A stretch of 64,000 nt of DNA from Isoetes taiwanensis (taxonomy: Eukaryota > Streptophyta > Lycopodiopsida > Isoetales > Isoetaceae): assembly GCA_021234155.1 (NCBI GenBank), contig JAJEKV010000025.1:14880867-14944866 (forward strand), given 5' to 3'. The translations under genes were made by a program, and so were the position numbers. The notes under the pieces were generated by a model that saw only the letters and a list, made by a program, of their open reading frames with translations, was not told the origin of the DNA and searched no databases. Shown in pieces: positions 6,886 to 40,600 of this stretch (positions are counted from its first letter, which is position 1; each line of letters begins with the position of its first letter).

Positions 6886-6959
6886 AAGGAATCAAAGGGC
6901 AACAAGGGACATTCTTCTCTACATTTATTTGCCACTCAAGAGACTTGGCATTAAACTAG

Positions 6960-7135
6960 ATATCAGGTTATGCCACCTTCGTGACATAGAGTATTATATT
7001 TTTTGAAGACAATTATTTGTAGAGGTTGGCTTCTTGACATATGCCACCTTCAATGATATTTTTTTTGAATACAATACAATTATTTATAGAGGTTGGCTTC
7101 TTGACAAACGCCACCTCCGTGACATATTTTTCCAA
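6960..7135 (+). repeat. Short tandem repeat downstream of kinase, copy 1
   Basis: Roughly 65-bp units containing GAGGTTGGCTTCTTGACA and a GCCACCTTCGTGACAT-like segment, about two and a half copies. The same array lies behind kinase copy 2 at about 25626-25801, so it predates the duplication. A short ORF here (7034-7234) is repeat-derived and not a convincing gene. Confidence 0.7.
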
Positions 7136-7550
7136 ATTAATTGTTCGCTTTGCCGAGCTCTAGCCAATATGGATTTTGGTTGCTCTTTTTGTTTACACAT
7201 CTTCAAACTTTTCTTCCTTTTTTGCATTGTCTAACTCAAATTTTTGCTTTCTAGTATTTGCATCTTGTGATCTTTGATACTATAACAAGCTTTGTTTTAT
7301 GCTTTAGCATAGAATATTGTGGCTTCAGAGTCTCTTCTATTGGCAAGCACTGCCATGTTGCCATGTGCAGACACAATTTGTTATAATAGTTGGAAGATGG
7401 ACGATGTTCTTGAAGTTGGGGATTTTCGGACTTTTAAATGCTGTGGTATAGAAACATATTTGTCATTTTTATTGTAAGTGAGTGGACATAGAGTATAGTA
7501 GATCATTATGCAATTGTCAGAGTTGAGCACGTCTATAACAATGTGATGTT

Positions 7551-7789: not shown

Positions 7790-7895
7790 GTGATGTTAGG
7801 CATTGTTATGAAGAAAGAGCTCAATACCTTATACGGTGGTGTGGCCATGTGACGTTGGGGTATTTTTGATACAAATATTTACGTTTGGATGTTGG

Positions 7896-18690: not shown

Positions 18691-21655
18691 ACCGGCAAAT
18701 AAAGAATCCGCTTCTTCAAACCACACTCAAAACTGCCAATGTTGAAATACATGTTTTGACAATGTCTCCTGCAAATATCTATCAGTAAAAACAGGCAAGG
18801 CAGTGCATATTTATTACGTTATTTCAGTGCACATATAGTCCCTAGTCTACGGGGTTGTGGTTGCCAAATCCAGAATAAAACTATATCCAAGCTACTGCTC
18901 CATGCAAATGGGCATTTGAGCTTGTTAAGTTAATATATCTCTAAATTTTGGACTCTATGTCGAAGAACTAAATAAACCCATATCCAAATTGGCACTGCAA
19001 AATGGGCATTTGAGCTTCCTAACGTCTAGATATCTCTAAATAAACGAAAGCAAGAATAGAAACAATTCCGAACTCTGCACCATCTTTTTATTTCCTATTT
19101 TAAGTTGTATCTCTCCAACTACATATCAGGACAAAGAAGATCCTAAAGCTAAGAAAGGACATGCTCATCATGAAATGCTAAGATCAGATAAGACACCGCC
19201 CCAATCGAGTTATTGTGAAACATTACAAGCACTTCCATTCTTGACTTATGCATAAACAAACTAACGAGCATTTCTGGATCAAACTTTGTGTCATTTACAT
19301 CACCATATTCAACATGCCAAGCAGAAGGGACATCAACTGAGACCATGCGTGGTGTCTCGACTAGCAGCTTAATGAGCCCATCAAATGGGGGCGGTTCACA
19401 CCGCAAATATCTATCAAGAAAAGACAGGCAAAGGCAAAGGCATATTTATCACGCGTTATTTCAAATAGACGTATAGTCCCTAGTAAAAACAGGCAAGGCA
19501 GGGCATATATCACGTTATTTCAGTGGACATATAGTCCCTAGTCTACTGGGTTGTGGTTGCCAAATCCAGAATAAAACTATATCCAAAATAATGCTCCATG
19601 CAAATAGGCATTTGAGCTTGTTAAGTTTATATATCTCTAAATATTGGACTCTATGTTGAAGAACTAAATAAGCCCATATCCAAGTTGGCACTGCAAAATG
19701 GGCATTTGAGCTTGCTAACGTCTAGATATCTCTAATAGACTACATGTTGAAGAACTAAATAAACTAAAGCAAGAATAGAAACAATTCCAAACTCTGCACT
19801 ATTTTTTTTATCCCGTATTTTAAGCTGTATCTCTCCAACTACACATCAGGACAAAGAAGATCCTTAAGCTAAGAAAGGACATGCTCATGATGAAATGCTA
19901 AGATCAGATAAGACACCAGTTTCCACTGGGAGAGTTATTGTGAAACATTACAAGCACTTCCATTCTTGACTTATGCATAGAAACATCTACCATAAACAGC
20001 ACAAAATTAAAAGGCAGAGACATCTTCCACAATGAGAAAACATGACAGTGTTGCAGAACCAATGTAAATACGGCTTACAAAGGCAAGATCGCTGATTTCA
20101 AGTTAAGAAACTAAACAACTTCCCAATGTCAATAGTACTTTGCGGATTACACCATGCGGGACAGATGCATACGAAAAATGGAGTTGGAAGTACAAGCAGT
20201 AAATCAATATTGGCAAGCTCTTTCCTTTAATAACGTTATTGTGAATTCACATACATTTAAATGAAAACACAAATATAGCATCGATAACGTGTCAAAGTTT
20301 AAAGAAAGATTGTGTGGCAACTCCTCGACTGATATAAAAGGCCCCTGATAAGCTGTTTAGCTGCCAAGAAATAGTTTTATCAATAATCTAGATAACAAGG
20401 GCAGTCTATTAAAATAAATGCTGAGCATATCTCATGATAACATCACATTGACCAAACTTAAAACACAATCTTTGTCGCGTATAACTTTCAGGTTTAGGTT
20501 TTCAATGTTGAAGACTAAAGACATTAGAATGACTGGTTTCTTGAGTGCAAATTTCATGGACATAAACATAAAGTACTGACTTTATCCAACTGTGCTGCAT
20601 GTCTTCACGTGCAGCAATTGTATTATAAGTTATCAGCACACAAGGTTTTAAAGCTCAGATTCCTGTTCATACTCGACCTCCTTGCTCAAGTAGGAATCGC
20701 AATCCAAATTTTATGGCCATGACCAAACTTACTGTCATCTAGCTCTTTCCTATGATTAAACAGTGTCATCGAACTGGTTGACCTCAACAGAAATTATCAG
20801 GTAACAAAAGCAAGGCATCTCTTATATACTTCATAAAATAACAAATTATAAGTTTTAGGAAATTTCCACGACAAAGTAAATAATTTTTATTACCAGTTCA
20901 AATAAAATCCAGAGAAGGTGAAAAGAAGGAGAACATTTTTATCCTTCCGCCCGTTTCGATTTCTATGTGCATTCACTTGTGGGAACTTTCCTGCTATATG
21001 CTGGATAAGGTAATACTAGGCAGTTGTAGCTATCTTTTGCACTTCAAACTCAAGGTGAAGACATAATGATATCTACTTTAAAGCCATGAGAATTAAAAGA
21101 CCTTCAATGGTTTATTCTGCTTGAAACATGGAATGTGCATTGAGAACCAAAATGAGAACTTACTTGTGTGACAAGGCCTGCATATAATGATTTTCCAGTT
21201 TGTTTGGGGTAACATATGCATGGCTTGTAACCAGAATGATGAAGATGCCGAGCTGCAACCAATCCATACCCGCCATTGTTCCAGGGACCACATAGTACAA
21301 GGATACGTTTATATTCAGCTACAGGATACACCTGTGAAATGCCAAAGCGAGTTGGACACAAAATAAGATTGTAAAGGCAAGTGCCTACTGGAGACAAGGT
21401 ACTATCAAGTGCTGGGCCATGAAAGATAGAATAATTCAACGATATTCACATGGTTATAAGTATGTAATACCTCTGAAATAGCTGAAGCAACACTCAAACC
21501 TGCAAGCTCCTGCTCAATAAATAGATAGAACATAAGTATGAGAATGAATGATTGAAAAAGAAGAGCACCATCAGCTGATCAATGCTAAAACCCAATGGCC
21601 CCATAAGCATTTCATCAATAGAAACCGCAGCAGATTGTGAAATATAAGATATAAG
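18690..21655 (-). pseudogene. PDX3: NAXE-PNPOx copy B (best-preserved epimerase exons)
   Basis: Minus-strand unit with exons: N1 about 21569-21655 (SIDEMLMGPLGFSIDQLM), N2 21471-21509 (39 bp, ELAGLSVASAISE), N3 21164-21331 (168 bp, in frame: [37 protein letters not shown]), N4 20255-20360 (FISVEELPHNLSLNFDT in frame after a local disturbance), N5 about 19262-19408 (PPFDGLIKLLVET, MVSVDVPSAWHVEYGDVND). A stub of the PNPOx exon (complement of CTTCTTCAAACCACACTC) survives at 18712-18760; the rest of PNPOx is gone. The glycine loop reads GPWNNGGYG where the family has GPGNNGGDG. N4 lacks one base needed for DTLIDAIF. The intron between N4 and N5 carries duplicated modules. No kinase follows this copy. 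Confidence 0.85.
18775..20000. repeat. Repeated intron modules in copy B
   Basis: Two copies (about 18775-19260 and 19480-20000) of a module containing AACAGGCAAGGCAGTGCATA, AGTCCCTAGTCTAC, GTGGTTGCCAAATC and GGGCATTTGAGCTTGTTAAG. Further copies are near 13135, 13795 and 22505. Inside each module the GGGCATTTGAGCTTG phrase is itself doubled about 120 bp apart. This reiteration drove unequal exchange in the array, I infer. Confidence 0.75.
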
Positions 21656-21659
21656 ATTG

Positions 21660-22504
21660 TGAAAGTACAAGCAGTAAATCAATATTGGCAAGCTCTTTCC
21701 CTTAATAACGCTATTGTGAATTCACATACCTTTAAATGAAAACACAAATATAGCATCGATAACGTGTCAAACTTTAAAGAAAGATTGTGTGGCAACTTCT
21801 CGACTGATATAAAAGGGACTGATAAGCTGTTCAGCTGCCAAGAAATCGTTTTATCAATAATCTAGATAACAAGGGCAGTCTATTAAAATAAGTGCTGAGC
21901 ATTCTTCATCATAACATCACATTGACCAAACTTAAAACACAAACTTTGTCCTGTACAACTGTCAGGTTTAGGTTTTTAATGTTGAAGACTAAAGACATTA
22001 GAATGGCTGGTTTCTTGAGTGCAAATTTCGTGAACATAAACATAAAAGTATTGACTTTATCCAACTGTGTTGCATGTCTTCACATGCTGCAAGTGTATTA
22101 TAAGTTATCAGCACACAAGGTTTTAAAGCTCAAATTCCTGTTCATACTCGACCTCCTTGCTCAAGTAGGAATCAGAATCCAAATTTTATGGCCATGACCA
22201 AACTTACTGTCATCTAGCTCTTTCTTATGATTAGTGTCATCGAACTGGTTGACCTCAGCAGAAATGATCAGGTAACAAAAGCAAGGCATCTCTTATATAC
22301 TTCATAAAATAACAAATTATAAGTTTTAGGAGATTTCCACGACAAAGTAAATAATTTTTGTTGCCAATTCAAATTAAATCCAGAGAAGGTGAAAAGGAAG
22401 AGAACATTTTTATCCTTCCTCCCGTTTCGATTTCTATGTACATTCACTTGTGGGAACTTTCCTTTCCTGCTATATGCCAGTTCAGTGGATATAGTAATAC
22501 TAGG
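21660..22504 (-). pseudogene. NAXE-PNPOx partial unit D (exon N4 and intron)
   Basis: A fused partial unit beginning directly after copy B's first exon. It contains exon N4 at 21730-21834 with an intact SLSVPF coding phrase and proper GT donor (GGTATGTG), but the same missing base before the DAIF segment as copy B. The following intron matches 20380-21000, and it is cut off at 22504 by an intron module. Plus-strand ORFs here (21892-22197, 22358-22672) are intron shadows. Confidence 0.7.
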
Positions 22505-23225
22505 CACCTGCAATTATCTATCAGTAAAAACAGGCAAGGCAGTGCATATTTATCACGTTATTTCAGTGGACATATAGTCCCTAGTCTACCGGGTTATGGT
22601 TGCCAAATCCAGAATAAAACTATATCCAAGATACTGTTCCATGCAAATGGGCATTTGAGCTTGTTAAGTTAATATCCAAGTTGAGCTTGTGAAGAACTAA
22701 ATAAGCCCATATCCAAGTTGGCACTGCAAAATGGGCATTTGAGCTTGCTAACGTCTAGATATCTCTAAAATGGTAGACTATGTTGAAGAACTAAATAAAT
22801 GAAAGCAAGAATAGAAACAATTCCGAACTCTGCACCATTATTTTATCCCCTATTTTAAGCTGAAGATCCTCAAGCTAAGAAAGGACATGCTCATCATGAA
22901 ATGCTAAGATCAGATAAGACACCAGTTTCCACTGGGAGAGTTATTGTGAAACATTACAAGCACTTCCATTCTTGACTTATGCATAGAAACATCTACCATA
23001 AACAGCACAAAATTAAAAGGCAGAGGCATCTTCCACAATGAGAAAGCATGATAGTGTTGCAGAACCAATGTAAATAGGCCTTACAAAGGCAAGATCGCTG
23101 ATTTCAAGTTAAGAAACTAATTCCCAATGTCAATAGTATTTTGCAGATTACACCATGCGGGACAGATGCATAGGAAAAATGGAGTTGAAAGTACAAGCAG
23201 TAAATCAATATTGGCAAGCTCTTTC
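22505..23225. repeat. Intron module between units D and C
   Basis: Matches 19480-20215 of copy B, including GACACCAGTTTCCACTGGGAG and ACCATGCGGGACAGATGCATA, with a small internal rearrangement near 22675-22700. No exon is recognisable. Confidence 0.7.
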
Positions 23226-24276
23226 CCGTTTTAAAGCTCAAATTCCTGTTCATACTCGACCTCCTTGCTCAAGTAGGAATCGGAATCCAAATTTTATGGC
23301 CATGACCAAACTTACTGTCATCTAGCTCTTTCTTATGATTAGTGTCATCGAACTGGTTGACCTCAGCAGAAATGATCAGGTAACAAAAGCAAGGCATCTC
23401 TTATATACTTCATAAAATAACAAATTATAAGTTTTAGGAGATTTCCACGACAAAGTAAATAATTTTTGTTGCCAATTCAAATTAAATCCAGAGAAGGTGA
23501 AAAGAAGGAGAACATTTTTATCCTTCCTCCCGTTTCGATTTCTATGTACATTCACTTGTGGGAACTTTCCTGCTATATGCTGGATAAGGTAATACTAGGC
23601 AGTTGTAGCTATCTTTTGCACTTCAAAGTCAAGTTGAAGACATAATGATATCTACTTTAAAGCCATGAGAATTAAAAGACCTTCAATGGTTTATTCTGCT
23701 CGAAACATGGAATGTGCATTGAGAACCAAAATGAGAACTTACTTGTGTGACAAGGCCTGCATATGCATGGCTTGTTTGGGGTAACATATGCATGGCTTGT
23801 AACCAAAATGATGAAGATGCCGAGCTGCAACCAATCCATCCCCGCCATTGTGTTCCAGGGACCACATAGTACAAGGACACGTTTATATTCAGCTACAGGA
23901 TACACCTGTGAAATGCCAAAGCGAGTTGGACACAAAATAAGATTGTAAAGGCAAGTGCCTACTGGAGACAAGGTACTATCAAGTGCTGAGCCGTGAAAGA
24001 TAGAATAATTGAACGATATTTACATAGTTATAAGTATGTAATACCTCTGAAATAGCTGAAGCAACACTCAAACCTGCAAGCTCCTGCTCAATAAATAGAT
24101 AGAACATAAGTATGAGAATGAATGACAATAATGTTAAAGTTATTAAAAAGGAAGAAGAGCACCATCAGCTGATCGATGCTAAAACCCAATGGCCCCATAA
24201 GCATTTCATCAATAGAAACCGCAGCAGATTGTGTAATATAAGATACATCGTCGAAACTTTGTGAAGCATTCCTGTG
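23226..24276 (-). pseudogene. NAXE-PNPOx copy C (first three NAXE exons only)
   Basis: Minus-strand exons N1 (24163-24276), N2 (24045-24083) and N3 (23743-23905) are identical in layout to copy A at an offset of 18,666 bp. They share with A the same 163-bp frameshifted N3 and the same CATGCATATG direct repeat inside it. Downstream (23226-23640) is intron sequence closer to unit D than to A. All PNPOx exons are absent, so this is a truncated pseudogene whose value is mainly as the 5' neighbour of kinase copy 2. Confidence 0.8.
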
Positions 24277-24579
24277 TTTCCAAGGAATTCGTCATATTCT
24301 AAATGCCACCAACCCTGTGTTACTTTCTGCTTCTGTTTCTGCGAGCATGTTAATGTGTTTGTGCATCAACGGGCCGGATAGTTGGCTTTGGGATCGTGCC
24401 AACATCCGACGGGCAGCAGACAAATATCTGGGCTTTTTCCTAATTTAGATCTCGCCTTTTTCCCGAAAGCCAGGAATAGAACTGATATTTTAGAACACGG
24501 AAAGTGCAGAGTCAGACACAATTACAGAGGTATAAGAATGTCTGCATTTGCATTGTGTTGGCATTACAGAATTCTGAGT
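24277..24579. promoter_or_regulatory. Divergent intergenic region, copy 2
   Basis: Duplicate of 5611-5913, base for base as far as I can follow. Whatever promoter activity exists upstream of kinase copy 1 should therefore be present here too. Confidence 0.35.
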
Positions 24580-25551
24580 ATGGAGACGGAGACGCAGGAG
24601 ACAGATGAAGAGCTTCTCAACTACACTTACTCTGCTTTATTTCCCAATCTTTTGAGAGCTATGATATGCTTAAGGAAATCGGCGAGGGTGGCCAAGCTAC
24701 GGTTTTCCTCTGCAGAAGTAAAAAGAGGAGGTAAGAAAGAGTTTGCTTGCAAAATCATCTGGGTAGGAGACACAGAGCCGATCAAGGAAATGGAGATCAT
24801 GCAGAAATTAGCCAGCAGCCCTGGCATAGTGCATATACACGAAGTAATCAAAGACGAGGGATTCTGGCACTTGATCATGGAATTGTGCGAATGTAGCTTG
24901 CTTGATGTAATCGTCAAGAAAGGCAGGCTATGCGAAAAGGAAGCGGCTCTTCTTACTCGAAATCTTGCTCTAGCTATACAGGATCTTCATCAAAAGGGTA
25001 TCATCCACCGGGATCTGAAGCCAGGCAACGTTCTTGTGACCTCAGCAGCAAAGCCCTATGATGTTAGGGTTTCAGGATTTCGGCATATCGGATCGTTTTT
25101 CAGGTTCTGCTCCCAGTTTTACATCCAGAGTCGGAACACCAAGATATTTCGCCCAGAGGTTGTGCAGGGATATTATTCCACAGAGATAGACATATGGGAT
25201 CTGGGTTTGATCCTGTATGAGGTGCTTACTGGGAATGATCACTTCTCAAGTCTAGAAACTGCGCAAATTCACGAAGAACTGCTTCATGGCGAGGATTTGG
25301 CTGCCTCACACTTGCATTGGCCAGTTGGGTTGGTGTCAGAGGAAGCAAAGAGCCTTGTTTTGGCAATGTTGCAGCCTGATCCAGAGGAAAGGATATCTGT
25401 GCAGCAAATTTTGGCACACCCCTGGGTTGCCAAATATTCTAGTACTAGTACAAGGGCGCCTCAGAGCTTAAAACGTAAGAGGCCATGCTTCAAATATGGT
25501 GTTCCTGCTAAGCTCATCAGAACAGTGAGGCCCTCTGAAATTGCCTGCTGA
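24382..25551 (+). pseudogene. Protein kinase copy 2, catalytic motifs scrambled by paired frameshifts
   Basis: Same length (389 codons) as copy 1 and identical over most of it, with HRDLKPGN retained. Two stretches read out of frame. A 1-bp loss near 24654 is compensated by a 1-bp gain near 24722, replacing the GEGGQATVFLC loop with unrelated residues. A 1-bp gain near 25074 (TTTCAGGATTT against TTTCGGATTT) is compensated by a 1-bp loss near 25152, replacing DFGISD and the activation segment. The second pair restores frame just before PEVVQGYY. As assembled it would bind ATP poorly and could not catalyse transfer: a pseudokinase or pseudogene. Because two of the four indels fall on CAG contexts and one in an A-run, sequencing error must be excluded. 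Confidence 0.75.
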
Positions 25552-26288
25552 AAGGAATCAAAGGGCAACAAGGGACATTCTTCTCTACATTTATTTGCCA
25601 CTCAAGAGACTTGGCATTAAACTAGATATCAGGTTATGCCACCTTCGTGACATAGAGTATTATATTTTTTGAAGACAATTATTTGTAGAGGTTGGCTTCT
25701 TGACATATGCCACCTTCAATGACATTTTTTTTGAATACAATACAATTATTTATAGAGGTTGGCTTCTTGACAAACGCCACCTCCGTGACATATTTTTCCA
25801 AATTAATTGTTCGCTTTGCCGAGCTCTAGCCAATATGGATTTTGGTTGCTCTTTTTGTTTACACATCTTCAAACTTTTCTTCCTTTTTTGCATTGTCTAA
25901 CTCAAATTTTTGCTTTCTAGTATTTGCATCTTGTGATCTTTGATACTATAACAAGCTTTGTTTTATGCTTTAGCATAGAATATTGTGGCTTCAGAGTCTC
26001 TTCTATTGGCAAGCAATTGCCATGTTGCCATGTGCGCACACAATTTGTTATAATAGTTGGAAGATGGACGATGTTCTTGAAGTTGGGGATTTTCGGACTT
26101 TTAAATGCTGTGGTATAGAAACATATTTGTCATTTTTATTGTAAGTGAGTGGACATAGAGTATAGTAGATCATTATGCAATTGTCAGAGTTGAGCACGTC
26201 TATAACAATGTGATGTTAGGCATTGTTATGAAGAAAGAGCTCAATACCTTATACGGTGGTGTGGCCATGTGACGTTGGGGTATTTTTG

Positions 26289-28338: not shown

Positions 28339-28343
28339 TCCAC
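28339..28343. repeat. Target-site duplication, left (TCCAC)
   Basis: TCCAC immediately before the 5' LTR start TGTGACGG, matched by TCCAC at 40043-40047 after the 3' LTR. A 5-bp duplication is the normal integration footprint of Ty3/gypsy elements. Confidence 0.9.
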
Positions 28344-29996
28344 TGTGACGGTCCAGGGGAATATACGCCATAAATACGTATATTCCTGGATCCGTCACTA
28401 TACAAGTCTATCTTCATAGCCTTGTATACCATAGATTGTGGCATTAGGGGGCATGGCCAAGTTATTCTCATAACTTAGCCAACCATAGGTTAGACCATTA
28501 TCCACGTGGCCTTAACCTATTGGGGGCACCCGCCACACAGGATTCACCCGATTGGTGCCACGTGGCATCCTAGGTGGACCTAACTTATATAGGTCTGAAA
28601 CCCTAACCCTAGGCCTCTTTCCAGCCCTAGCACCCGTGGGGACTCACCTACTGCGTTCGAAACCCCGTTTCAACATCGCTTGTTGGCATAGGGTGGTGCA
28701 AAGAGCCCCAGCCAGGGTAGACTTGTTCTTGGAGTAGGAGCAAAGATCTCGTGAGTCAAGACCATGGAGGCACACCTGATCTGGAGGGAGAGCTTCAGAG
28801 CAGGTGTATGTAGGATAGTAGTTGTGATAGCTTATCCGGAATTAGCATTCCGTATATGCTAGTATCTTGTATCTAGAGTAGAGCCATCCTAGAACAACGT
28901 ATTCAACATCTTGAACCCTAATCAATGAACCCTAACTATTAGTTAGATTTGTATGATTAGGTTAAGATGTTCTTCTTATGATTATTCTCATGATGTGATG
29001 ATTATGTGATGATGGTTGATCATGTTTGCTCCTCTTGTATTGGGAAGGGGGGGTAGAGACCTAGAGCCATATGTAGTATGCTTCTAGATTAGACCCCTTA
29101 GTTCCTATTAGTTGCGGCTCAGGTATAGGAGCCCGCCAAAGCTATCGAGGCTATGTTATGACTCAGCACCACATAACGGGCTAGAGGGAAAGTGGAGGGA
29201 GGATCCCCGCCGAAAGGGGGCTTCGGGGATCCCATAGTGGGCTAGGCTTATGGTCTGCCACTTCGCAGTGGGCCGGCATGGGTCCGACACCTCCCGGGGC
29301 AATGGTGTTGCCCTCCGCCTCGAGAGCTGCAAGTGTTGGCTTGGCTCTCGCTTTTGGGGGTCAAGTCGCACGAATCGGTGTCGCCACGATTCTCTAGCCG
29401 CCACGGCAACACCTCTAGACCCCGGGAGGGGAGATGCAACCCTTCCCGCCTCATCCACCGGGAGATGCAACCTCGAGTAGTCCCGATGGGTGATGCCATG
29501 GGATTGCGTGTCCCAGGAAGGCTAGAGTCATGCCGAGCCTGATTTAGCCCATCCGCAGTATGCACGTGAGGGGCGGATGGAGTGGTCAACCCTAGCCATT
29601 GTCTATAGCCAGCCCGCCATTGTTATGACTCGCCCCGCTTCTATCTTGAGGCTCTAGCTACCGGGCCATCCTCCTTATGAGTCTGAGCCATGGGTAGGAG
29701 CTCTTATGTTTCATGGCATAGGATTATCTTCTTTGCGCTTGTGGATATGTGATGGACTACCCTTCGAGGTAGTATGTTGTATTGTTATTGCTAGTTCTGA
29801 CGTTGTTTATGCTTCCGCCGTGATAGGAGCCCATAGGGAAGGGCGCCAGAGACACCTTCGAAGTCCCCCCCGCCTCCAAGACTAGATTCTTTCAGAAAGC
29901 GGGTTAGACTGAGGGCCCATGCGTTTGATGGACCTGGATGGGGGATTTCCTACCGAAAGTGTACCACCGCACCGTATATTTAGCAGGGGCGCCACA
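28344..29996 (+). repeat. 5' LTR
   Basis: Starts TGTGACGG, ends GCGCCACA. It pairs with 38419-40042. A TATA-like ACTTATATAGG lies at about 28584-28593, followed within 10 bp by AAACCCTAACCCTA, a telo-box-like motif. ORFs at 29156-29589 on both strands are LTR sequence. Differences from the 3' LTR are concentrated at CAG/CTG sites. Confidence 0.95.
28583..28612 (+). promoter_or_regulatory. LTR core promoter candidate (TATA plus telo-box)
   Basis: ACTTATATAGG followed by GAAACCCTAACCCTAGG; the same pair is present in the 3' LTR at about 38657-38685. Teloboxes (AAACCCTA) are known near plant promoters and are bound by Myb/telobox proteins. That the LTR uses it is inference. Confidence 0.5.
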
Positions 29997-29997
29997 A

Positions 29998-30010
29998 TGG
30001 TATCGTGAGC
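29998..30010 (+). other. Primer-binding site, tRNA-iMet type
   Basis: TGGTATCGTGAGC two bases after the 5' LTR. The usual plant PBS complementary to initiator-Met tRNA is TGGTATCAGAGC. The only departure is CAG read as CGTG, the same kind of change seen at CAG sites between the LTRs. Confidence 0.8.
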
Positions 30011-30869
30011 AATGTTCTTGGTTGACCAAGAGCTAGCACTCCACCATATCCCCTCAATAGGTAGACTAACCGGCCTAGCTATGGAATGGAATGAGAATTC
30101 CAGCCTTGAACCAGAATATGGGAGAATTTTTTTCCCCATTAGCGGGGATCGTAATTAGATTAAGTATAGTCTAAGTGGTAGAAATAATATAGTCAAAAGA
30201 AACCTTTCTAGTAAATTTGAGCTCAAGTTGTTCATGAACCGCACCTTCCAAGCAAAAAATTGAACGAAAATCGCCAAAAGAAAGCTTGAAAGAAATGGCG
30301 AAATGACCACTACTTGGCCCAAAAAGGAATTAGGAAATTTTGAGAAATAGTTAAGGATTAGGGAAGTACCTTTAATTATTAACCCATAGTTATAATAAAT
30401 TTACTCTTAAGAAAAGTATCTAATAAACCTATGGAAACACCTCTACTCCCTAGAAGTTCCCCAAATGGTAGCTTGAACCTCTCCCTTACCCTTGTAAAGC
30501 CTAATTAGAAGCTAATCTCCTGAAGCTGCCATAAGAGTGTCCAACCTAACCAACAAAATTTACCCAGATCGACCCAAAGGAGCCGGAAGATAGAGGCAAG
30601 ATCGCCAAGAGGCCACCATCAAGGAAGCTGCTGTTGGGAGGGACCAAACAAGTAGCTAGGAAGGTCGAAGCTCCAGCTTGGTAACCGAACGCCGGCACTC
30701 ACGTGGGCGACAAGCAAATTCTGAGGCTCTGCTTGTAGGCTAGACCGACGAACTTGGCCACTCAAGCTCTCGCATCTAATCGCTTTTTACCGTGAGGAGG
30801 AGCAAATCGACTTAGCACTTCAGCGTAATGATCGCAAGGTCAGGAAAAATTGAGATCGCGGGCGCTCGC

Positions 30870-31130
30870 CGGCAAGGGAAGAGCAAGTAGCGAGAGCAAC
30901 CGGGCAACAGGGAGCAATCCCAAAGAACAAGAGAGAGCAGAGAAGAGCAAGTAGCGAGCAACTCGGAGCAACGCAAGCAAATCCTTAACGGGGAAGGGAG
31001 AAAGTGGAAGAGCAAGTAGCGAGAGCAACGAGCAATCTAAGGAGCAACCCCAAAGAACAAGGAGAGCAGGAGAAGAGCAAGTAGCCAGAGCAACCTCGGC
31101 AACAGAGCAACCCCAACACCAGAAGAATAG
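30870..31130. repeat. Tandem GAGCAAGTAGCGAG-type repeats inside the element
   Basis: Units of roughly 70-100 bp built from AGAGCAAGTAGCGAG, CAAAGAACAAG and GAGCAACC, about three degenerate copies. Minus-strand ORFs 30812-31342 arise from this periodicity (leucine/serine-rich) and are not genes. Confidence 0.7.
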
Positions 31131-31309
31131 GGGAGCAAAGAAGCAAGAGGGAGCAACCCTCAAGAATACGAAAATAACCCATGCAAAGAGAACAAAGAAG
31201 AAGGCGAAGCGAAAGCAACCAATGCCAAGAAAAGCCGCATAAAGAGGCATGAAGCTAGGGCGAGGGAGAGCATGGTTATCGAGAACCACAACTGACGAAT
31301 CGGAGGAGG

Positions 31310-31860
31310 ATGAGCCCGAGGAAGAAGGACCAAAACGGGCAAGGGGCTAAAGAAGAAGAGGAGGAGGAGGTCAAGAAAAGACGAGGCCTACACGCCTGCA
31401 AACCATATCCAATGCAAATTAAGGAGGGCAACATCAGCGAGAAGCTACTTAAAGCTCAAGCAAGATATGGAGTAATGAAGAAGAAGGCAAGATACAAGAT
31501 TTATCTCCGCCAAACAATCCGACAAGGCAACACTAGAGTCGAAAATCAAGCCTCCACCACCTTGACCCGATTCCCCAAGAACGTCCCGCCATGGGCCAAA
31601 TCCCCAAAGACAAATAGAGCTGCTCAAAGATATTCGACATTGCCAACATCATACCACCGATGATCCGTAAACTCTCTTTCGAAAGTGCCTACATCAAAGG
31701 TCTATTGAGGAGTTCAAGATGGGCCACCGACTACGGAACCACATCAACGATGGCGGGATCTCGCCGAAGCGGCCAAAGCCGAGGAGGCCAAGATCCGCAC
31801 CATTCATGCCAAGAGGATGACCATTACGCCAAGAGCATGAACCTAGCACCTAAGGATTAG
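31310..31860 (+). pseudogene. Possible gag remnant
   Basis: ORF 31310-31663 is rich in Lys, Arg, Glu and Gln and lies where gag should be, downstream of the PBS and leader. It continues with a second short frame to 31860. No zinc knuckle is visible. Assignment rests on position and composition only. Confidence 0.3.
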
Positions 31861-32085
31861 AAAAAAAAAAAAAAAAAAAAATGAATGAAATTTAGGAATC
31901 TTTGAATAAGATTTTGAACTTGTATGTATATATGTTCCTAGAATTAATGGTTATATGTATATATATGGAGTCAAAGTCAACTCGGGTTGGATCATGCGAA
32001 AGGCCTCTCGTCGCCGCTAACGCAGCCTCATTTTTCGCTGGCAACCCGGTTTGCAAAAAAAAAAAAAAAAAAAAAAAAAAGTCAA
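31861..32085. repeat. Two poly-A tracts bracketing a short segment
   Basis: A-runs of about 22 at 31861-31882 and about 28 at 32056-32083. The segment between ends with, and the one after begins with, GTCAAAGTCAACTCGGGT-like sequence, so the stretch looks like a small duplicated or retro-inserted piece. ORFs here encode lysine runs and are spurious. Confidence 0.7.
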
Positions 32086-32385
32086 AGTCAACTCGGGTCC
32101 CATCACAGAAACCCCTCACAACCCCCCTTGACGCAGGGGCTATTTCTCGCGACGCCACCCGATTTCGGCATTTTGACAGTTATAGGTGTCCAATTTGAGT
32201 AATAAAAGTTGCTAGTTAGGTTAGAATCATGCTGAAAAGTCATGTTAGGATGTTTAAATTCCCAAAAACCCTTCATAGGAATAGAATTGACCCGAAACCG
32301 GGTCGCATCGCTGAAACCACTTTGCGCTTCCTTGACGCAGAGCCCTTTCATGACGCCACCCGATTTCGCCCAATTTTGCCTAAAT
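31974..32385. repeat. Three diverged copies of a GTCGCATC...GACGCCACCCGATTTCG module
   Basis: The phrase 'CGGGT(C)-CATC...GAAACC...CTTGACGCAG.GC...GACGCCACCCGATTTCG' is recognisable at about 32093-32167 and 32298-32370, with a more degraded version at 31984-32055. Their role within the element's 5' region is unknown. Confidence 0.55.
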
Positions 32386-32639
32386 TGACCAATTTTGACC
32401 CAACAAATTGCCATGTAGTGTTTCTTGCTTTGCTTTGTTTAGAATTGCACTTCATGGTAGCTCATTTGGACAACCATGGCTATAGATTCGAAGTCCGCCC
32501 CATCGAACCTTTTGTGCACGGAACCCGAGGTACCCTAGTCTATAAAAAGGGCCCTCATTTGTCATTTTCTCCCCATCAATCGCTCTCGCCTCCTTTGGCG
32601 ATTTTCTAGCCCTTTGCTTAATCCCAAAGAAATTTTTTT

Positions 32640-35600
32640 TTCATAGCTATCTCTCGCTCAATGGCACCATCAAGCTTTGTTAGATGGTACGAGGAGGGGC
32701 CGAGCAAGCCTTCCATGTATTTGATCATCTTTTTGATCTCCATGCCATTTTGACTACAACTCCCTATTACAATCACATCAATTGCCAATATGACCAAGCC
32801 TTATAGTTAGAACCAAGATCCTTAAGCTAGATAGAGACAAAGATTCACTCATCACAGCCTTAGTTGTCGCCTTATCTTGCTAAGTGTCTTCTTGTCTACA
32901 TATAGGTAGTATAATTAAACCTTTTCCTTAGAAACCCGGCTAGTTGCTAAGGCCTTAGAAATTGTTGTCACACGTTGGTATGATACACCAACACACGTTA
33001 TAGGTGCACTATCATCAAGTGTCTTCAGCCATACCTTTGTATCATAGATAATTATCTAGAAATTCATCCTATCTAGGTAATTCAGTCTAGCACACCAAGT
33101 ACACCCAAAGGAATGAGTCTCCTTCTACCACCCCATGATAGTAAATAAGTACCTTTTCGCTTGTTTAGTAGAGTGCCAAATGCCAAGTGGGTCATTTGAG
33201 GTAGAGTGGATAAAGGTATAAAAATAGGGTTTTTAAAGTAAGTAGCCATAAATAATTGTTGTGTGATAGTATTAGTTGCCTTGTGCGTAGGGCAGTAATA
33301 TAGGGTAGGAGAATCACCTTGCGCATTTCTCGACGGGAGCCACTCGACAACATCAACGAATCGAAAGAGCGAGGGCAACCTTATGGAGGAAGCTTCAGCA
33401 AATCAAAGGCCAAGATGGTGTACAGGAAAGCACGAACACGAAAAATAAAGGAGAGCCTATAGGAAGAACGATTGCGACATCAGGATTAGACACAAGACTG
33501 CCAAGAGGGCTATGCAACAGTCAATGGGCATCATGGCACTTACAAAATTGCTCACATTAGGGGAAGGGTATCTCCTAGTCAAGGATATTCTCCAAGTGCC
33601 ATATTGCCTCGAGGAACAACCCCACATCGATGACTGATGTCACAGCTACGCCACCAACAAGTAGACTTCATCGACTTATGACCCCTAAAAGATGAGACTG
33701 GACAAACCTCCTCGGAAGGGAAATTATCATAGGTATCCAGGCCATAGTAGTATCAGATTTGGACTTCAAGCAAACATGCTTGACTAAGGAGGTACTACAA
33801 GCCAGCAAGGGTGGGCTTCTCAGGAATAGGAATTTCTTCCTCATCAGCCCGATACTTCAGAGCAGCTGCATCAACCTCGACAGCGCCATCTCAAGATCAC
33901 GACAATCTTCTGCTGTAGAGATTGGAGGTCAAGCACCATCAAGAAGAGGCATCATGAGGGACCAAATACCAGAATTAATTGATCACCAAGATTAGTCCTT
34001 GTAGATGGATGCACATAAACTCCTCTAAGCAAGAGAAGTTGCACAGCTTAGAAGTGGTAAAAGCACTCAACATTGTCATCACCTTATAACAACAAAGATG
34101 CAATCAAAGCGAGACGAAAGAATAGAATCGACAAGGTCAACACCACAATATCAATCCAGGAGTTAGAAGAATCATCCTCGAATCTTGTAACCTTCAAGGC
34201 AGATGAGTCAAACACGAAAGATTCTACGCAGTGGTGAACATGACCTCCAAGCCTTTGGGATGCAACACCGAGCCTTATGTCGCCACTACATCAGCAAGTC
34301 CACTAAGAGGGATAATGTTAATGAAGATAATCAACATCAACATTTAGGACGAGAAGAGTCAAGAGTCAGAATATGTTCGACAAAAGGAATAGGGCAATGA
34401 ATGATTATACAACAACCCAAGGAGACCAGATCTTTTCAACAACTTATGAATCATCGCCTTGCTACCCAACGACTAACGACTATACCAGCTTTTAAGCAAG
34501 CTAGGGGACCTATTAGATAGTTGAGCTTCTTAGAATTATGGGTGATAACATCCATGATGGGATGGGCAATGAAATTTCGAGTAGATTTTTTGTCTTTTCC
34601 TTTAGAAAGATGGACCCAAGAATGGAGCAAAGCTTCAAGTATTGGGAAGAAAATGTATGGAGTACAATAATTGTATACATTGCCGGCAGATATCCAACAT
34701 ATTGGAACCTCTTCGTGAGTTTGATCACCTCGCTAAGAAGGATTCAATAATAGGATAACCGTCGACCATGTATATGACGAAGTACTTCCGCAAATATAAG
34801 GGATAATCCACCAAATGAAGAGAAGCAATCTAATAAGTCCGGCCAACTTCTTAGATGGCATCAACTCAAAGGTGGGGCTATTTCAAGAGGGCAATAATTA
34901 AGAAAGGGTAGATCCTAGAGTATAGATTAGATCTAAAACAAGAATAATTATCTAATCATATAGTTTTCTATGTGTGCCCAAAAGTAATGTCATGCCGACT
35001 AACTTGTGGCCATAGGATTTATGTAAGTAGTTCTTTAACTTGTAATTTTGCACCTCCTAGATGATCTTGGACATCTTTAAGAGCAAGACTCTTAAGTCTA
35101 AATCTAGGCCAGTAATTAAGCCAAGGCCAAGTAATTAGCAGCACCAACGGAACAAGAGTCAAGTTCGACATCAACCTAGAGCGAAGCAAAGTAGAGCATC
35201 GGCACCAACTTATGTACATTAGCAATTATGACCTCACAATAAGCATGCAATATTAAAGCTGGCTAAAGCAATAATTGATTATTATAAGCAAGAGATACTT
35301 ATCCCAGCACTAAAGGGCAAGTACCTTATAATTTAAGTTAAGTAATTCCAATCGTGCAACGTATGTCAGTAAAGCAATTACTTAAGTGCATCATGAGGAA
35401 TGAGGTCATACACAAAGCTACAAGTTGTCGACCCAGCCCAATAATAGTAAGAAGGAAGATGCTACTTCTTGAACAAATTTGCCTTGGGCAATTTCTAAGT
35501 TAATCAAGAAGTCCCATGATATATCTCCAGGTGAAATTTGAGAGCTTTTGCTCTATAGAGGCATAGAGTCTGAAATCACTCTTGCGACCGGGAGGCGAGC

Positions 35601-35840
35601 CGATCAGCAAGGCTCTTTATAGAATCAGCACTTCCAGAGCTAGCGAGCTCAAGAAGCGGTTGTAGGAGTGGGGATCCTTTCGGCCAAGATGGAAGTTTAA
35701 AGGTGTATATCAACCATGGGCAGCTCAACAAGCAACGACATAATGGATCAGCCCCAAGAAGCGGGATTCTTCTACAAAATCGACTTAAGCAAATAAGGAT
35801 GAAGGGGAAGATAATTATAAGACTCCTTCAAAACTTGGTA
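32640..35840 (+). other. Decayed internal region of the element, no domain recognised
   Basis: Expected to hold gag-protease and the start of reverse transcriptase by position. Plus-strand ORFs at 33759-33995, 34203-34400 and 34538-34750 show no motif I can name. Confidence 0.4.
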
Positions 35841-36000
35841 TGGGCACTATCACTTCACGGTGATGCTCTTGAGTCTATGGAATGCTCCACCAACTCAGAT
35901 GCATTTGAGGGACATCTTGAAGATTCCTTGGATGATTTCTTCATCAATTCTCTTGACGACATCGTGATCTACACAAATCAATGGAAGAGCATGCAGCCAT
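35840..36000 (+). pseudogene. Reverse-transcriptase core remnant
   Basis: Two frames recall the Ty3 RT palm: FTVMLLSLWNAPPT (about 35854-35895), equivalent to FTVMPFGLTNAPAT-type sequence, and NSLDDIVIYTN (about 35949-35981), equivalent to YLDDILIYS with the tyrosine replaced. A frameshift separates them. Enough to identify the domain, not to function. Confidence 0.7.
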
Positions 36001-36429
36001 GGAGATGTTAAGACGCCGCCACTCATTGGCAAGCTTTTGAAGCAGCAATTTGCAATGCCATCTCCACTTGTGGCTTAATTCGCAAGAAGATAGAAGAAGC
36101 CATCTTTCCCAACATGGAGTTCAAGCACATGATGGGCTAGTCCTTACAAGAGTGCAAGAAACGGATTAAGAAAGAGAAACCTTCAAATATTTTAAAAGGA
36201 AGGTAATCTTTAATATCAAAAGAACAACTATACTCAAAGCATAAGGAGTAAGAAAAATTTTCCAGGACACGCATAATAGCCCTATTTCGGCTATGCAAAA
36301 TTTATAAAGGTCTACTTCAAGATTAGAAGTAGCTACTTCGGCCGGACATGAAGAAGCGATATAGTCGATATATCCAACAATGTCAAGGTGGCACCGCCAG
36401 ACAAAGGGCGGTACAACTTAATTTTTAGG

Positions 36430-36830
36430 AGTTTTGGAACCTTGGGGTGCAAGGCCAAGTGGGAAGTCTTCAGCATGGGTTTTATAGTTGGCCTTCCAAG
36501 GACAACAAGAAGCTTTGAAGCCTTGATGGTTGTGGTATATAGTTTATCAAAGGGCACATACTTGCCATGCCACACCATAGACACGACCTTGGATCTAGCC
36601 ATGGGGTCTACATAAGAGTTAGTTTAGGCTGCATGGAAGGCGTTAGGTCCATCATCACCAATAGAGATCCGGGAGTTCTTTAGCGGCGTTTAGCAACACT
36701 TCTTCAACATGAGCTGCACCAACTTGTTGATGGGTTTTGCTTATCTTTTCTTGTCAAATCAGCAAAGGGACCGCACCAACACAATTTTGGAGAGCTTCGT
36801 TGAGGAACTATGATTGGAACAAGTAATCCA
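36430..36830 (+). pseudogene. Integrase core remnant
   Basis: FIVGLPRTTRSFEALMVVV with SLSKGTYLPCH (about 36481-36576), VRSIITNRDPGVL (about 36642-36680) and QQRDRTNTILESFVEEL (about 36763-36812) follow the order of a retroviral-type integrase core, corresponding to the first Asp region, the second Asp and the Glu helix. At least two frameshifts and an in-frame stop separate the blocks. Confidence 0.8.
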
Positions 36831-37091
36831 AATGGGCGAGTACATCCACCGGGTCAATTACGTACAATAATATAAAGCAAGAGTCATCGAAGATGTCTCC
36901 CCATGATCGATTCTGATTATCAATGCTTGACCCTAGTTATGTGGCATACTCTAGTGCCCTAGGTGGGAAGTTTCTCAACAACGGCGGCATGTATCTCAAG
37001 AGCTTTTGGTAGAAGTGTGAGAACATCTTCAACAAACATGGGCACATCCGAAGAGTCTAGCAGATAGACATAAAACTCCTGGGGAGTTGTT

Positions 37092-37343
37092 TTGTTGTGG
37101 CGTATAAAGTTGGCTCAAGTAAAGGTTAAGCAAGGGAAGCTTCGCATCGGCAATTGTAAGAAGCTCGCCCTAGGTGGGCCGGTCCATTCAGGATCTTGGA
37201 GAAAAGTGGGCTCTCAAGCCTACAAGTGGAATCTCTTGGCCCACCTTAAGGTCTTCCATGTAAGTTTATTGAAAAGGCACGATCCTAACCCTGAGGAGGT
37301 TTGGCTACTCAACTTTGTTGGAAATGACGGAGGATCAACTTGA
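37092..37343 (+). pseudogene. Integrase C-terminal module
   Basis: LKVFHVSLLKRHDPNPEEV (about 37246-37302) matches the HPVFHVSLLK box at the end of plant Ty3 polyproteins, preceded by GPFRILEK in another frame. No chromodomain was found after it, unlike the element at 8.6 kb. Confidence 0.8.
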
Positions 37344-37599
37344 AATTGTGCCTGAATTGCTTCTTGATAAAGTCATTCAAGAGGACTAGGTGCTCTCAAT
37401 TCCTCCGATTTGGTCATGTAGAAAGCACTTACCCGTGGAAGGCAAGATGGGTATTGAAGTAGGATTTGGAGAAACAATACCCAGAATTTATGAAGGAGTT
37501 TGATGGGTGAGTCGTCTCCGACTTGGTCGACCCCGACTTGCCAGGTGGTTAGCTAGTATGTTGTTAGTTAGCCTTAAGCCTGGCGCATGCATTCTAGTT

Positions 37600-38080
37600 A
37601 GTAGGGTGCATGTGCGGGGAAACTTGGATCGTGTGGGCGATGATGGGATACCTTTAGGGCATTCTCTGAGCCACACGCACCAAGAGGTGCGCATGACCAT
37701 TAGGGTCATGTGAGTGAGGAATGAGGCATGGTGGGCGATGATGGGACATCGATCCCGGATGATCTCTATGCCACGATGCGAGAATGCGCACACCTGGCCG
37801 TAGGAGGGTCATGGTGAAGGTTAAAGTGATCATCTTGCGATGATGGGATGGGATGAGGCGTTCCCTAGCTGAAACCCTCGGGGCATGATGCCTTTGGGGT
37901 GTACTCGATCCGGGGATGGGTGTACAAGGTAGCACTTCGATCATGGGCAATGATGGGAGCATCTTAAATGATCCCTAAGCTCAAATCCGAAAGGGCCATG
38001 ATCTTGGGCAAGGTAGTAGGACAACCTTGAGCGATGGTTTCGCTCAAGGAGGTAAGGGGGGTGGTCCCCTAAAACCACAA
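37600..38080. repeat. Degenerate tandem repeats around GATGATGGGA
   Basis: Four or so units of about 100 bp, each with G(G/C)GATGATGGGA followed by a CCCTAAGCTC/GAGCC-like phrase, at about 37638, 37735, 37836 and 37948. Located between the end of pol and the 3' LTR. Confidence 0.6.
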
Positions 38081-38407
38081 ATTATTAACTAAACTAACGT
38101 AATGTGCTCCTTTTGCAGGCAAGTAGAAGGAGGACTTCAACGAGGAGGCGTTACGAGAAGATAGGGGGAGCCATAATTTAGATTATGAACCCTAATAACT
38201 CTTATAATAGTATTTTGAATTATTATAAGAAATAACGGTGTTAAGGCTATATAATTTTGTATAAGTACAAATATAGCCTAAATTTTGACCTTTTAACTAA
38301 TAAAACTTGATTGCTAAACTAAACTAAAGGTTATGACATGTTGTTGTTTTGCAGGCATAAGGTAGGTTCGTCACCTTAGCGCAATCTTTGAGGGGCGGCA
38401 TTGTCCT

Positions 38408-38418
38408 AAGGGGGAGAA
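38408..38418 (+). other. Polypurine tract
   Basis: AAGGGGGAGAA directly upstream of the 3' LTR; primes plus-strand DNA synthesis in LTR elements. Confidence 0.9.
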
Positions 38419-40042
38419 TGTGGCGGTCGAGGGAATATCACGCCATAAATCACGTATATTCCTGGATCCGTCACTATACAAGTCTATCTTCATAGCCTTG
38501 TATACCATAGATTGTGGCATTAGGGGGCATGGCCAAGTTATTCTCATAACTTAGCCAACCATAGGTTAGACCATTATCCACGTGGCCTTAACCTATTGGG
38601 CACCCGCCACACGGATTCACCGATTGGTGCCACGTGGCATCCTAGGTGGACCCTAACTTATATAGGCTGAAACCCTAACCCTAGGCCTCTTTCCACCCTA
38701 GCACCCGAGACTCACCTACTCGTTGAAACCCCGTTTGAACATGGATTGTTATTGGCATAGGCTGGTGCAGCGACCCCGGGGTAGACTTGTTCTTGGGTAG
38801 GGCGGCATCTCGTGAGTCAAGACCATGGAGGCACCGGATCTGGAGGGAGAGCTTCAGGGCAGGTATGTAGGATAGTAGTTGTGATAGCTTATCTGGAATT
38901 AGCATTCCAGATATGCTAGTATCTTGTATCTAGAGTAGAGCCATCCTAGAACCCGTATTCAACATCTTGAACCCTAATCAATGAACCCTAACTATTAGTT
39001 AGATTTGTATGATTAGGTTAAGATGTTCTTCTTATGATTATTCTCATGATGTGATGATTATGTGATGATGGTTGATCATGTTTGCTCCTCTTGTATTGGG
39101 AAGGGGGGGTAGAGACCTAGAGCCATATGTAGTATGCTTCTAGATTAGACCCCTTAGTTCCTATTAGTTGCGGCCTGTGCATAGGAGCCCACCAGGCTAT
39201 CGAGGCTATGTTATGACTCAGCACCACATAACGGGGCTAGAGGGAAAGTGGAGGGAGGATCCCTGCCAGGGGGGGGGGGGGGATCCCATAGTGGGCTAGG
39301 CTTATGGTCGGTCACTTCATTGTGGGCGGGCATGGGTCCGACACCTCACAGGGCAATGGTGTTGCCCTGCCTCTCGAGAGCTGCAAGTGTTGGCTTGGCT
39401 CTCGTTTTGGGTCAAGTCGGGTGCGAATCGTGTGTCGCCCACGATTCTCTAGCCATACGGCACCTCTAGACCACTGGGAGGGGAGATGCAACCCTTCTGC
39501 CTCATCGGACCAGGGAGATGCAACTTTGGAGTAGTCCCAGATGGGTGATGCCATGGGATTGCGTGTCCAGGAAGGCTAGAGTCATGCGAGCCACATTTAG
39601 CCCATGCGCAAAGTATGCACGGGGGCGGATGGAGTGGTCAACCCTAGCCATTGTCTATAGCCAGCCCGCCATTGTTATGACTTCGATGCGCTCTATCTTG
39701 AGGCCTAGCCAGTCGGTCATCCTCCTTATGAGTCGAACCATGGGTAGGAGCTCTTATGTTTTATGGCATAGGATTATCTTCTTTGCAGTTGTGGATATGT
39801 GATGGACTACCCTTCGAGGTAGTATGTTGTATTGTTATTGCTAGTTCTGACGTTGTTTATGCTTCCGCTGTGATAGGAGCCCATAGGGGAAGGGCGCGCA
39901 AGACACCTTCGTGTCCCCTGCCCGCACTAGGATTCTTTCAGAGTGCGGGTTAGACGGAGGGCCCATGCGGTTGATGGACCGGATGGGGGATTTCCTGCCG
40001 AGTGTACGGCCGGGCGCCGTATATTTAGCAGGGAGCGTCACA
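38419..40042 (+). repeat. 3' LTR
   Basis: Starts TGTGGCGG, ends GCGTCACA, followed by TCCAC. It is slightly shorter than the 5' LTR (1,624 against 1,653 bp). ORFs on both strands at 39248-39802 are LTR sequence. A G-run of 14 or so occurs at about 39270-39283 where the 5' LTR has CCGAAAGGGGGCTTCGGGG. Confidence 0.95.
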
Positions 40043-40600
40043 TCCACCTACAAGCATAGTACTTGTGGTAGATATTATTGTTCTTACAACTCAAAGTTTG
40101 TTGCCTAGGTAGTTTGTAATCTTCTAAATGCTTGTATGAAGTCCTTGTAAGCTCCACGTTTCAAACCATATAGCCACAATATCGGAGATTCGAGCATGCA
40201 CCCTCACAATTTTTGAACGTGGCATTTTGAGCCTAAACTTGAAGTCTTTTTTACTCTTGTTCTTAACCTCTTACTGAGGTACTTAACTACTACAAATGGC
40301 ATTTTGTCAAATGACAGTGGACATGTTTTGTAAAAATGTTTTCTATCTACTTAACACAAGGTCTGTTCTTTCATTCTACCCTTCACATCTTCAAACATGA
40401 CAAATCCTCTTTTGCACACCGACTACCACACATCCCCCATTCCACAAATCCATGAGCATTGTCAGCACATGTTTCTAATACAATATAGTTAAAATGGACA
40501 AATAATGGTGATGATTTTTTCATGAATTGTACCTAAAGGACATATTTTGAGCCCTTTCTACTTTACATATCTCATATGAGAAGGTTATAGGCCCTTAAAC
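40043..40600. repeat. Dispersed repeat R2, fullest copy; right flank of the element
   Basis: Starts with the right TCCAC target duplication. Covers both the part seen at 18400-18690 and the part seen at 14845-15170, showing these are pieces of one repeat. The retrotransposon inserted at its left edge. Confidence 0.7.

Follow-up and report, generated by a model that had tools for sequence, protein, structure and literature searches.

Altered CAG and CTG words in an Isoetes taiwanensis retrotransposon are most likely sequencing artifacts at methylated cytosines

The two long terminal repeats (LTRs) of a putatively Ty3/Gypsy-like retrotransposon in a stretch of 64,000 nucleotides from Isoetes taiwanensis (GCA_021234155.1, contig JAJEKV010000025.1; hereafter the window) differ preferentially at CAG and CTG (CWG). 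We put at about 0.93 the probability that these differences are sequencing artifacts, in which 5-methylcytosine (5mC) at CWG was misread as CG-like words and left unrepaired in repeats. The scrambled CAG/CTG is most likely not a real feature of the genome.

Structure of the element

The element occupies positions 28344-40042, with all of its parts given on the plus strand, and its two LTRs, target site duplication, TG...CA ends, and primer-binding site (PBS) are all present. Altered CAG/CTG sites set the 5' LTR (28344..29996) apart from both the 3' LTR and the copies elsewhere in the genome, while the altered CAG/CTG of the 3' LTR (38419..40042) lies mostly at other sites. The 5-bp duplication TCCAC is perfect on the left (28339..28343) and on the right (40043..40047). 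As judged from its sequence, the element looks very young, because the LTRs are nearly identical more than 4 nt from any CAG, CTG, or CG. The internal region (29997..38418) is split into short open pieces, the longest of 145 amino acids on the plus strand; reverse transcriptase-like and integrase-like pieces were recognized by eye only, and their frames are broken. Pfam searches with nine internal-region pieces gave one weak Tf2-1-like SH3 match at 37074-37340 (E 4.1e-4, below the cut-off) and two further matches at chance level (E 0.09 and 0.2), and no reverse transcriptase or integrase match was obtained with 10 transposon pieces. There were no inverted repeats of at least 14 bases in 28340-30040, and Rfam (gathering scores) and ARAGORN gave no matches in the window.

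The PBS (29998..30010) reads TGGTATCGTGAGC, the plant motif being TGGTATCAGAGC (PMC7215508), and thus shows the same alteration, as an earlier note made from the sequence alone had observed. Among genomic copies of the element, it was broken at the CAG in 8 of the 17 in which it was found; the 21 of 37 downstream flanks without TGGTATC at the expected place were left aside, so that this count does not pick up a PBS with changes upstream of its CAG. A broken PBS, which is templated by a tRNA, fits an artifact, as do the damage that is not inherited and the spared region of a kinase gene (see below). Together with the assembly of native DNA by Oxford Nanopore sequencing (ONT), these results support the base-calling or consensus error that the earlier note had proposed, with the methylation itself being what we infer.

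Differences between the LTRs

The alignment of the 5' and 3' LTRs contains 159 differing columns, grouped in 74 clusters. CAG or CTG occurs in 32 of them, against 9.6 ± 2.8 (maximum, 19) in 2000 random placements, which bears out the claim that the differences concentrate at these words; when CG is also considered, the figure rises to 54 (random placement, 23.3 ± 3.8; maximum, 36; 2000 placements). The 20 clusters of 74 with neither CWG nor CG were counted against an artifact. All 13 strings quoted in the earlier note are present, those from the LTRs appearing as differences in the alignment and the PBS string just inside the element. Most lie at most 2 bases from where they had been placed, but CCTTCCCGCC is found at 29441 instead of about 29451, and TTCCGTATA/TTCCAGATA, formerly grouped with 28833/38889, at 28848/38905.

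More than 4 nt from any CAG, CTG, or CG, the LTRs differ in only 8 of 780 columns (1 mismatch and 7 gaps), compared with 151 of 902 near them (71 mismatches and 80 gaps). Because CG is itself a product of the changes, masks that include it depend in part on the outcome. A mask drawn from CAG/CTG alone gave 21.2% of different columns near these words (2 nt) and 6.6% far from them. Counted by trinucleotide, 35 of the 59 CAG/CTG words in one LTR were changed in the other, compared with 9/157 for CAT/ATG and 17/101 for CAA/TTG. The CHG context originally put forward stands for CAG/CTG, which is primary, but not for CHG as a whole. CCG/CGG was as discordant as CAG/CTG (51/81) because the altered forms are themselves CG-rich; CWG was swapped for CG in 20 clusters and the reverse happened in 2, and CG arises largely as a product of CAG/CTG alteration.

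The LTR pair has 72 mismatches in 1595 ungapped columns, an apparent substitution of 4.5%, whereas away from CWG and CG a single mismatch remains among 773 ungapped columns, so that insertion dates would be greatly inflated. LTR-LTR divergence, the detection of transposon proteins, and repeat libraries derived from this assembly would all be distorted, and perhaps likewise those from other R9.4.1 assemblies of native plant DNA.

Sequencing technology and origin of the errors

CWG is the context of CMT3-type methylation. Under the artifact reading, transposons would carry 5mC at CAG/CTG on both strands, and the R9.4.1/Guppy 3.1 model, familiar with 5mC mostly from CpG, would read the shifted current as CGG, CCG, CG, or CGT. 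Such an error would be systematic, leaving racon unable to outvote it, and in diverged repeat copies the 150-bp reads used by pilon would not be reliably placed, so that each copy would keep its own mix of right and wrong words. Besides the misreading of methylation, this account probably requires that short-read polishing failed in repeats. Also counted against an artifact is that both LTRs present the same words, on which a strictly deterministic error would fall alike; the account needs, in addition, a consensus that is stochastic or polishing that was partial.

The assembly containing the window (1,658,258,908 bp, 1110 contigs) fits Isoetes taiwanensis v1, for which native DNA was sequenced with ONT R9.4.1, LSK109, and Guppy 3.1 flip-flop, assembled and corrected with miniasm/racon/pilon, short-read polished, and gap-filled with LR_Gapcloser (PMC8566536). 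The plant's Illumina reads derive, according to that paper, from the same batch of DNA. Guppy training did not include plants according to PMC7501810; a 2022 account describes later Guppy training data from all kingdoms of life (PMC9749173), which was counted against an artifact.

There are precedents for such errors. ONT consensus errors caused by 5mC at CCAGG/CCTGG (Dcm) have been documented in bacteria (Wick et al. 2019, PMC6591954). As proposed here, a 5mC in CWG context that was absent from training led to a large share of the errors, ca. 70% with the then current ONT basecallers and default models in a K. pneumoniae benchmark, whereas in Isoetes any CAG/CTG is affected, in a plant, and with a concentration in repeat-rich DNA. 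The Modpolish work on modification-mediated errors (PMC10687267) similarly reports an untrained modification at GCAGC and GCTGG with errors surviving polishing, although those of Listeria were mostly mismatches, while changes of length and of several bases are common in Isoetes. Both of these motifs contain CWG. The Isoetes errors share with this class the use of native ONT reads with a model untrained on the presumed modification, the centering on a short motif, and the lack of inheritance. For native plant DNA, a lower basecalling accuracy has been put down to methylation patterns missing from training (PMC9749173, PMC7501810); the terms CHG and CAG have no occurrences in the accessible text of the former, and that of the latter describes neither CAG/CTG-specific words nor effects on LTR comparison. 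Among the matches listed in a literature search, we noticed no report on CHG-linked consensus errors in plant transposons.

A general failure of repeat polishing, or gap filling with raw reads, independent of methylation would suit an assembly that was gap-filled with LR_Gapcloser and short-read polished, and the spared domain could just be better polished. We consider it very improbable, since unpolished reads should err more widely, yet columns away from CWG and CG are almost perfect, and conservation among 38 LTR copies is 92% for CHH words that lie away from CWG but 65% for CWG. Such a failure would still need a CWG-specific source of error. Raw-read gap filling was rejected in view of the near-perfect columns far from CWG and CG.

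Copies of the LTR across the genome

Of 6830 candidates, 40 were scored, and the copies come from the 40 matches listed: 37 were fetched, two correspond to the LTRs of the window itself, and one partial match at the end of the list was left out. One copy holding N (L018) was excluded from the 38-copy comparisons of word states and included in the 39-copy pair comparison. Over the 741 pairs of 39 copies, mismatches and gaps amounted to 3.3% far from and 13.1% near CAG/CTG/CG. CAG/CTG was the least conserved word among the 38 copies, with states that depend on the multiple alignment.

The choice of damaged sites is unrelated to the kinship of the copies, and the damage is not inherited. The discordance of damage had a Spearman correlation of 0.04 with the distance between copies (703 pairs; these overlap in the copies compared, as do the 741 pairs above, so that they lack independence and the correlation is descriptive), and in the 16 pairs with a mismatch of <0.05% in far columns it reached 0.446, with 0.43 under independence. 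Over 28 CWG sites, the intact fraction was 0.39 in the 5' LTR (first 1257 bases only) and 0.54 in the 3' LTR, and the two were discordant at 0.50 of the sites. Among eight LTR pairs judged to belong to one element, by spacing on one contig only, three had a 2.2-3.4 fold gap in intact fraction (0.79/0.25, 0.86/0.39, and 0.61/0.18).

Real mutation at CHG-methylated cytosines, e.g., by error-prone excision repair of 5mC, might also produce small indels and substitutions at transposon CAG/CTG; the context and the regional contrast fit methylation, and damage private to each copy is expected of events after insertion. Still, this is even less probable than a general polishing failure. Dozens of separate events, each changing several bases, would have had to strike LTRs that elsewhere show 1 mismatch in 780 columns, damaged states show no sign of following the kinship of the copies, LTRs of presumably the same age differ as much as described in three of the eight pairs, a gain of CG is not obviously predicted by 5mC excision, and the assembly technology by itself predicts such errors. 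We give just as little credence to an ongoing indel process directed by CWG methylation that would scramble Isoetes transposon copies independently and be faithfully reported by the assembly.

Damaged and spared domains of the window

The pattern is not confined to the element. In the window's other damaged pairs, 133 of 163 CWG were changed, against 42 of 398 in pairs from the spared parts. These pairs have copies in common and are thus not independent, and they were sorted by the CWG profile, as were those of the duplication described below. The domains were picked by eye from the same profile, which makes their CAG contrast partly a matter of construction. Their borders are rough, with altered words reaching to about 3340 in the copy at 2449-3448, yet 2800-7000 counted as spared. 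A 3-kb duplication carries a kinase gene, and its copy 1 (4576..7550, plus strand) serves as the first spared control, where the differences show little CAG/CTG excess (discordant CAG, 6/96, and CTG, 2/92, against 181/5943 for all words). The observed/expected CWG per kb was 0.94-1.10 from 4001 to 7000 and 0.46 at 7001-8000. The second is a low-damage domain that includes copy 2 (20001..26217, plus strand), where the ratio per kb stays at 0.84-1.15 between 20001 and 26000. A search with the kinase protein gave no named plant relative among the matches listed (120 of 2039).

Ordinary decay of CHG methylation (5mC to T) over a long transposon age would agree with the depletion of CAG/CTG and slight rise of CTA/TAG and CAA/TTG in damaged domains and with the spared pairs, which lose CWG mostly by C>T (20/42), but it is as improbable as real mutation in view of a young-looking element and of C>T-type changes in only 2 of 35 cases in the LTR pair (G>A included) and 19 of 267 CWG losses in the 38 copies, the other 248 not being C-to-T. 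These outcome counts ruled out deamination as the source of the LTR-pair differences, and the earlier note had rightly set it aside. Part of the CWG depletion may nonetheless be old, real C>T decay, and deamination may contribute to the depletion in older repeats. CAG/CTG depletion and scrambling might provide a crude, candidate readout of CHG methylation for assemblies that lack bisulfite data.

Two further observations were counted against an artifact. The sparing of CCAGG, a signature of training on Dcm, was sought in the domains of the window and not seen (0.42, like other contexts). The 5S rRNA was mostly intact at CWG, with three of its four sites intact in 10, 9, and 9 of 11 chosen copies and the fourth in 6; it is a weak external yardstick, since most of the copies picked had low scores. 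Of 20 random genome stretches, three were all N. In L053, the two extreme low-CWG bins overlap a 19-bp satellite, the unit of which contains no CWG.

LTR differences are concentrated at CAG and CTG

The LTRs of the element at 28344-40042 (5' LTR 28344-29996, 3' LTR 38419-40042) are flanked on both sides by a perfect TCCAC duplication, and their alignment of 1682 columns contains 72 mismatches and 87 gap columns. These differences form 74 clusters, 32 of which hold CAG/CTG (hereafter CWG) and 54 CWG or CG (20 have neither), while random placement gives 9.6 and 23.3, respectively, and reached the observed values in 0/2000 placements. The earlier note had described garbled LTR differences at CAG/CTG; the strings it quoted were all found, most of them no more than 2 bases from the place given, with three displaced by 10 to 16 bases, and the enrichment of CWG among the clusters bears out the description. 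Columns ≤4 nt from CAG, CTG, or CG in either copy differed in 151/902 cases, against 8/780 (one of them a mismatch) farther away, a mask that is partly circular because the altered words themselves contain CG; with a mask of CWG alone (2 nt), 21.2% of near and 6.6% of far columns differed.

Altogether, 35 of 59 CWG occurrences were altered in the other LTR, by indels (15), transversions or multiple changes (12), other transitions (6), and C>T/G>A in only 2, in agreement with the prior claim that deamination is not the pattern. Where CWG number was unequal between the LTRs (31 clusters), the CWG-poorer copy was CG-richer in 20 and CG-poorer in 2. Naive LTR dating would give far too old an age for this element. 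Its interior consists of open pieces, the longest of 145 aa on the + strand, and Pfam searches of nine of them gave one relevant match, under its cut-off, which is what indel errors spaced a few tens of bases apart would produce.

Altered words in genomic LTR copies

The genome searched comprised 1,658,258,908 bases in 1110 contigs (the window is C1029:14880867-14944866). We compared 39 LTR copies, 37 from the 40 matches listed for the first 1257 LTR bases plus the window's two. Over 741 pairs, columns far from CAG, CTG, or CG showed 2.45% mismatch and 0.88% gap, and near columns 6.67% and 6.47%. Among the 19 pairs with zero far mismatch, the near difference was 8.8 to 18.3% in 18 and 3.2% in one, L010/L011. 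These two copies, on separate contigs (G000:C1048 and C1049), were much closer near CWG (1.77% mismatch, 1.44% gap) than other near-kin pairs, perhaps through recent duplication, a retained haplotype, or shared polishing.

In 38 copies (L018 was left out for N), CAG/CTG was the least conserved word, with a mean of 0.65 over 20 sites (493/760 cells intact), compared with 0.96 for CTA/TAG; away from CWG, 5550/6004 CHH and 928/1140 CG cells were intact. Among the 267 lost cells, 91 had changed in length; the substitutions were of C>T type in 19 and of other kinds in 157. A census of 34 sites found 2 to 15 words per site, the commonest altered ones being CCG (104) for CTG and CGG (39) and CG (29) for CAG.

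A mutation handed down in the element's lineage should leave close copies sharing altered sites. Discordance between intact and altered states at 28 sites was 0.446 in the 16 pairs with far mismatch <0.05%; the two following distance classes gave 0.464 and 0.430, and distant ones 0.384 to 0.449, around the 0.43 expected of independent copies. Its Spearman correlation with distance was 0.04 over 703 pairs, which are not independent of each other. When both copies were altered at a site, the word was identical in 990/4038 cases. By these comparisons, damage at CWG is not inherited between LTR copies.

Private mutation after insertion also predicts no dependence on distance, but it is hard to reconcile with nearly unchanged columns elsewhere and with very unequal loads in LTRs of one age. 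In eight same-element pairs, assigned by spacing, intact fractions were strongly unequal in three (0.79/0.25, 0.86/0.39, 0.61/0.18), 0.79/0.46 in another, and closer in four (0.71/0.61, 0.75/0.64, 0.57/0.43, 0.54/0.39).

Primer binding site and 5S rRNA

In every replication cycle of a retrotransposon, the tRNA primer serves as template for the primer binding site (PBS). TGGTATC stood at the expected place in 16/37 downstream flanks, with nine full PBSs and seven altered from CAG onward; with the window's own, whose change the earlier note had pointed out, 8/17 were altered. The plant PBS used for reference is TGGTATCAGAGC, as given in a passage of PMC7215508.

The 5S rRNA is a weaker yardstick. 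Of 47 matches, 12 were taken, mostly for their low scores, and 11 aligned; 6 of these 11 kept the CCAGC site, and the remaining three CWG sites were unaltered in 10, 9, and 9 copies. Most CWG cells were thus correct even in this selection. Equal-scoring and altered copies are mixed in the clusters G000:C13:282836-304975 and C907:40703529-40709441.

Regional distribution

Judged against their dinucleotides, no trinucleotides in the window were scarcer than CAG (0.61) and CTG (0.66). The depletion was regional, with 1-kb bins of 0.84 to 1.22 at 3-7, 10-11, and 20-26 kb and, among the remaining 53, 44 at 0.25 to 0.72 and nine at 0.73 to 0.92. Observed/expected CAG was 1.04 in 11.2 kb of spared domains versus 0.43 in 34.6 kb of damaged ones, both picked from the 1-kb CWG profile itself. 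Paralogue comparison, which the earlier note had called for, gave the same picture: in spared pairs, CWG was altered between copies in 42/398 cases (20 by C>T), and in the remaining damaged pairs in 133/163, where C>T accounted for just 24. When a spared copy was set against a damaged one, the spared copy's CWG was altered in 29/50 cases and the damaged copy's in only 5/26.

In 17 usable 10-kb stretches from elsewhere in the genome, CAG/CTG again ranked last among 32 trinucleotide classes (0.78), with 5th to 95th percentiles of 1-kb bins at 0.41 to 1.16. Another stretch, L053 (G000:C1100), carries at 2492-4118 about 87 units of a 19-bp satellite, GCCACCTAGGCTCCAACAT, without CAG/CTG in its unit.

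Origin of the damage

The pattern is real as a property of the Isoetes taiwanensis assembly and is not a biological novelty. The damage is specific to CWG, yields CG-rich products, mixes indels with substitutions, spares whole regions, and is not inherited, and an artefact is supported. The previous suggestion of base-calling or consensus error at CHG-methylated cytosines thus stands as to artefact and needs amending as to context, which is CAG/CTG, with CG as product. Against this reading counts that both LTRs present the same words to the basecaller, so that a fully deterministic error is excluded. Spared domains could reflect methylation or polishing, and a CWG-specific error source is needed under both. 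Real C>T decay has probably affected older repeats too.

For the genome, Wickell et al. 2021 (PMC8566536) describe native DNA sequenced with SQK-LSK109, R9.4.1, and Guppy 3.1 flip-flop, and assembly by minimap2/miniasm, racon, pilon with 2x150 Illumina reads, Bionano, and LR_Gapcloser, with a total length of 1658.30 Mb made up of 204 scaffolds plus 909 contigs left unplaced (together 1113). The proposed source is cytosine methylation at CWG, poorly covered by the basecaller's training, with errors in repeats then left unrepaired by short reads. There are precedents: in a 2019 benchmark of ONT basecallers, ~70% of the consensus errors fell at the Dcm sites CCAGG/CCTGG (PMC6591954), and in Listeria an untrained modification at GCAGC/GCTGG is described as lowering assembly quality (PMC10687267). 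Broader training of Guppy is mentioned for 2022 (PMC9749173). The pattern is useful as a caution and might also give a rough indication of methylation.

Other genes and fragments

Kinase genes at 5716-6882 (+) and 24382-25548 (+) lie in a 3-kb duplication 98.4% identical. The second copy has four small indel sites, forming two compensating pairs, that change the Gly-loop and DFG/activation stretches and keep the 389-aa frame (Pkinase scores of 186 against 135 bits); it is either a pseudokinase or carries uncorrected errors. A LINE-like reverse transcriptase occupies overlapping open pieces at 226-1331 (+) (RVT_1 E 7e-13 at 975-1331 and E 0.01 at 226-981), and a fragment at 45655-46011 (-) resembles the C-terminal region of a phospholipid-translocating ATPase, with an E of 2.2e-5 that is under the curated cut-off.
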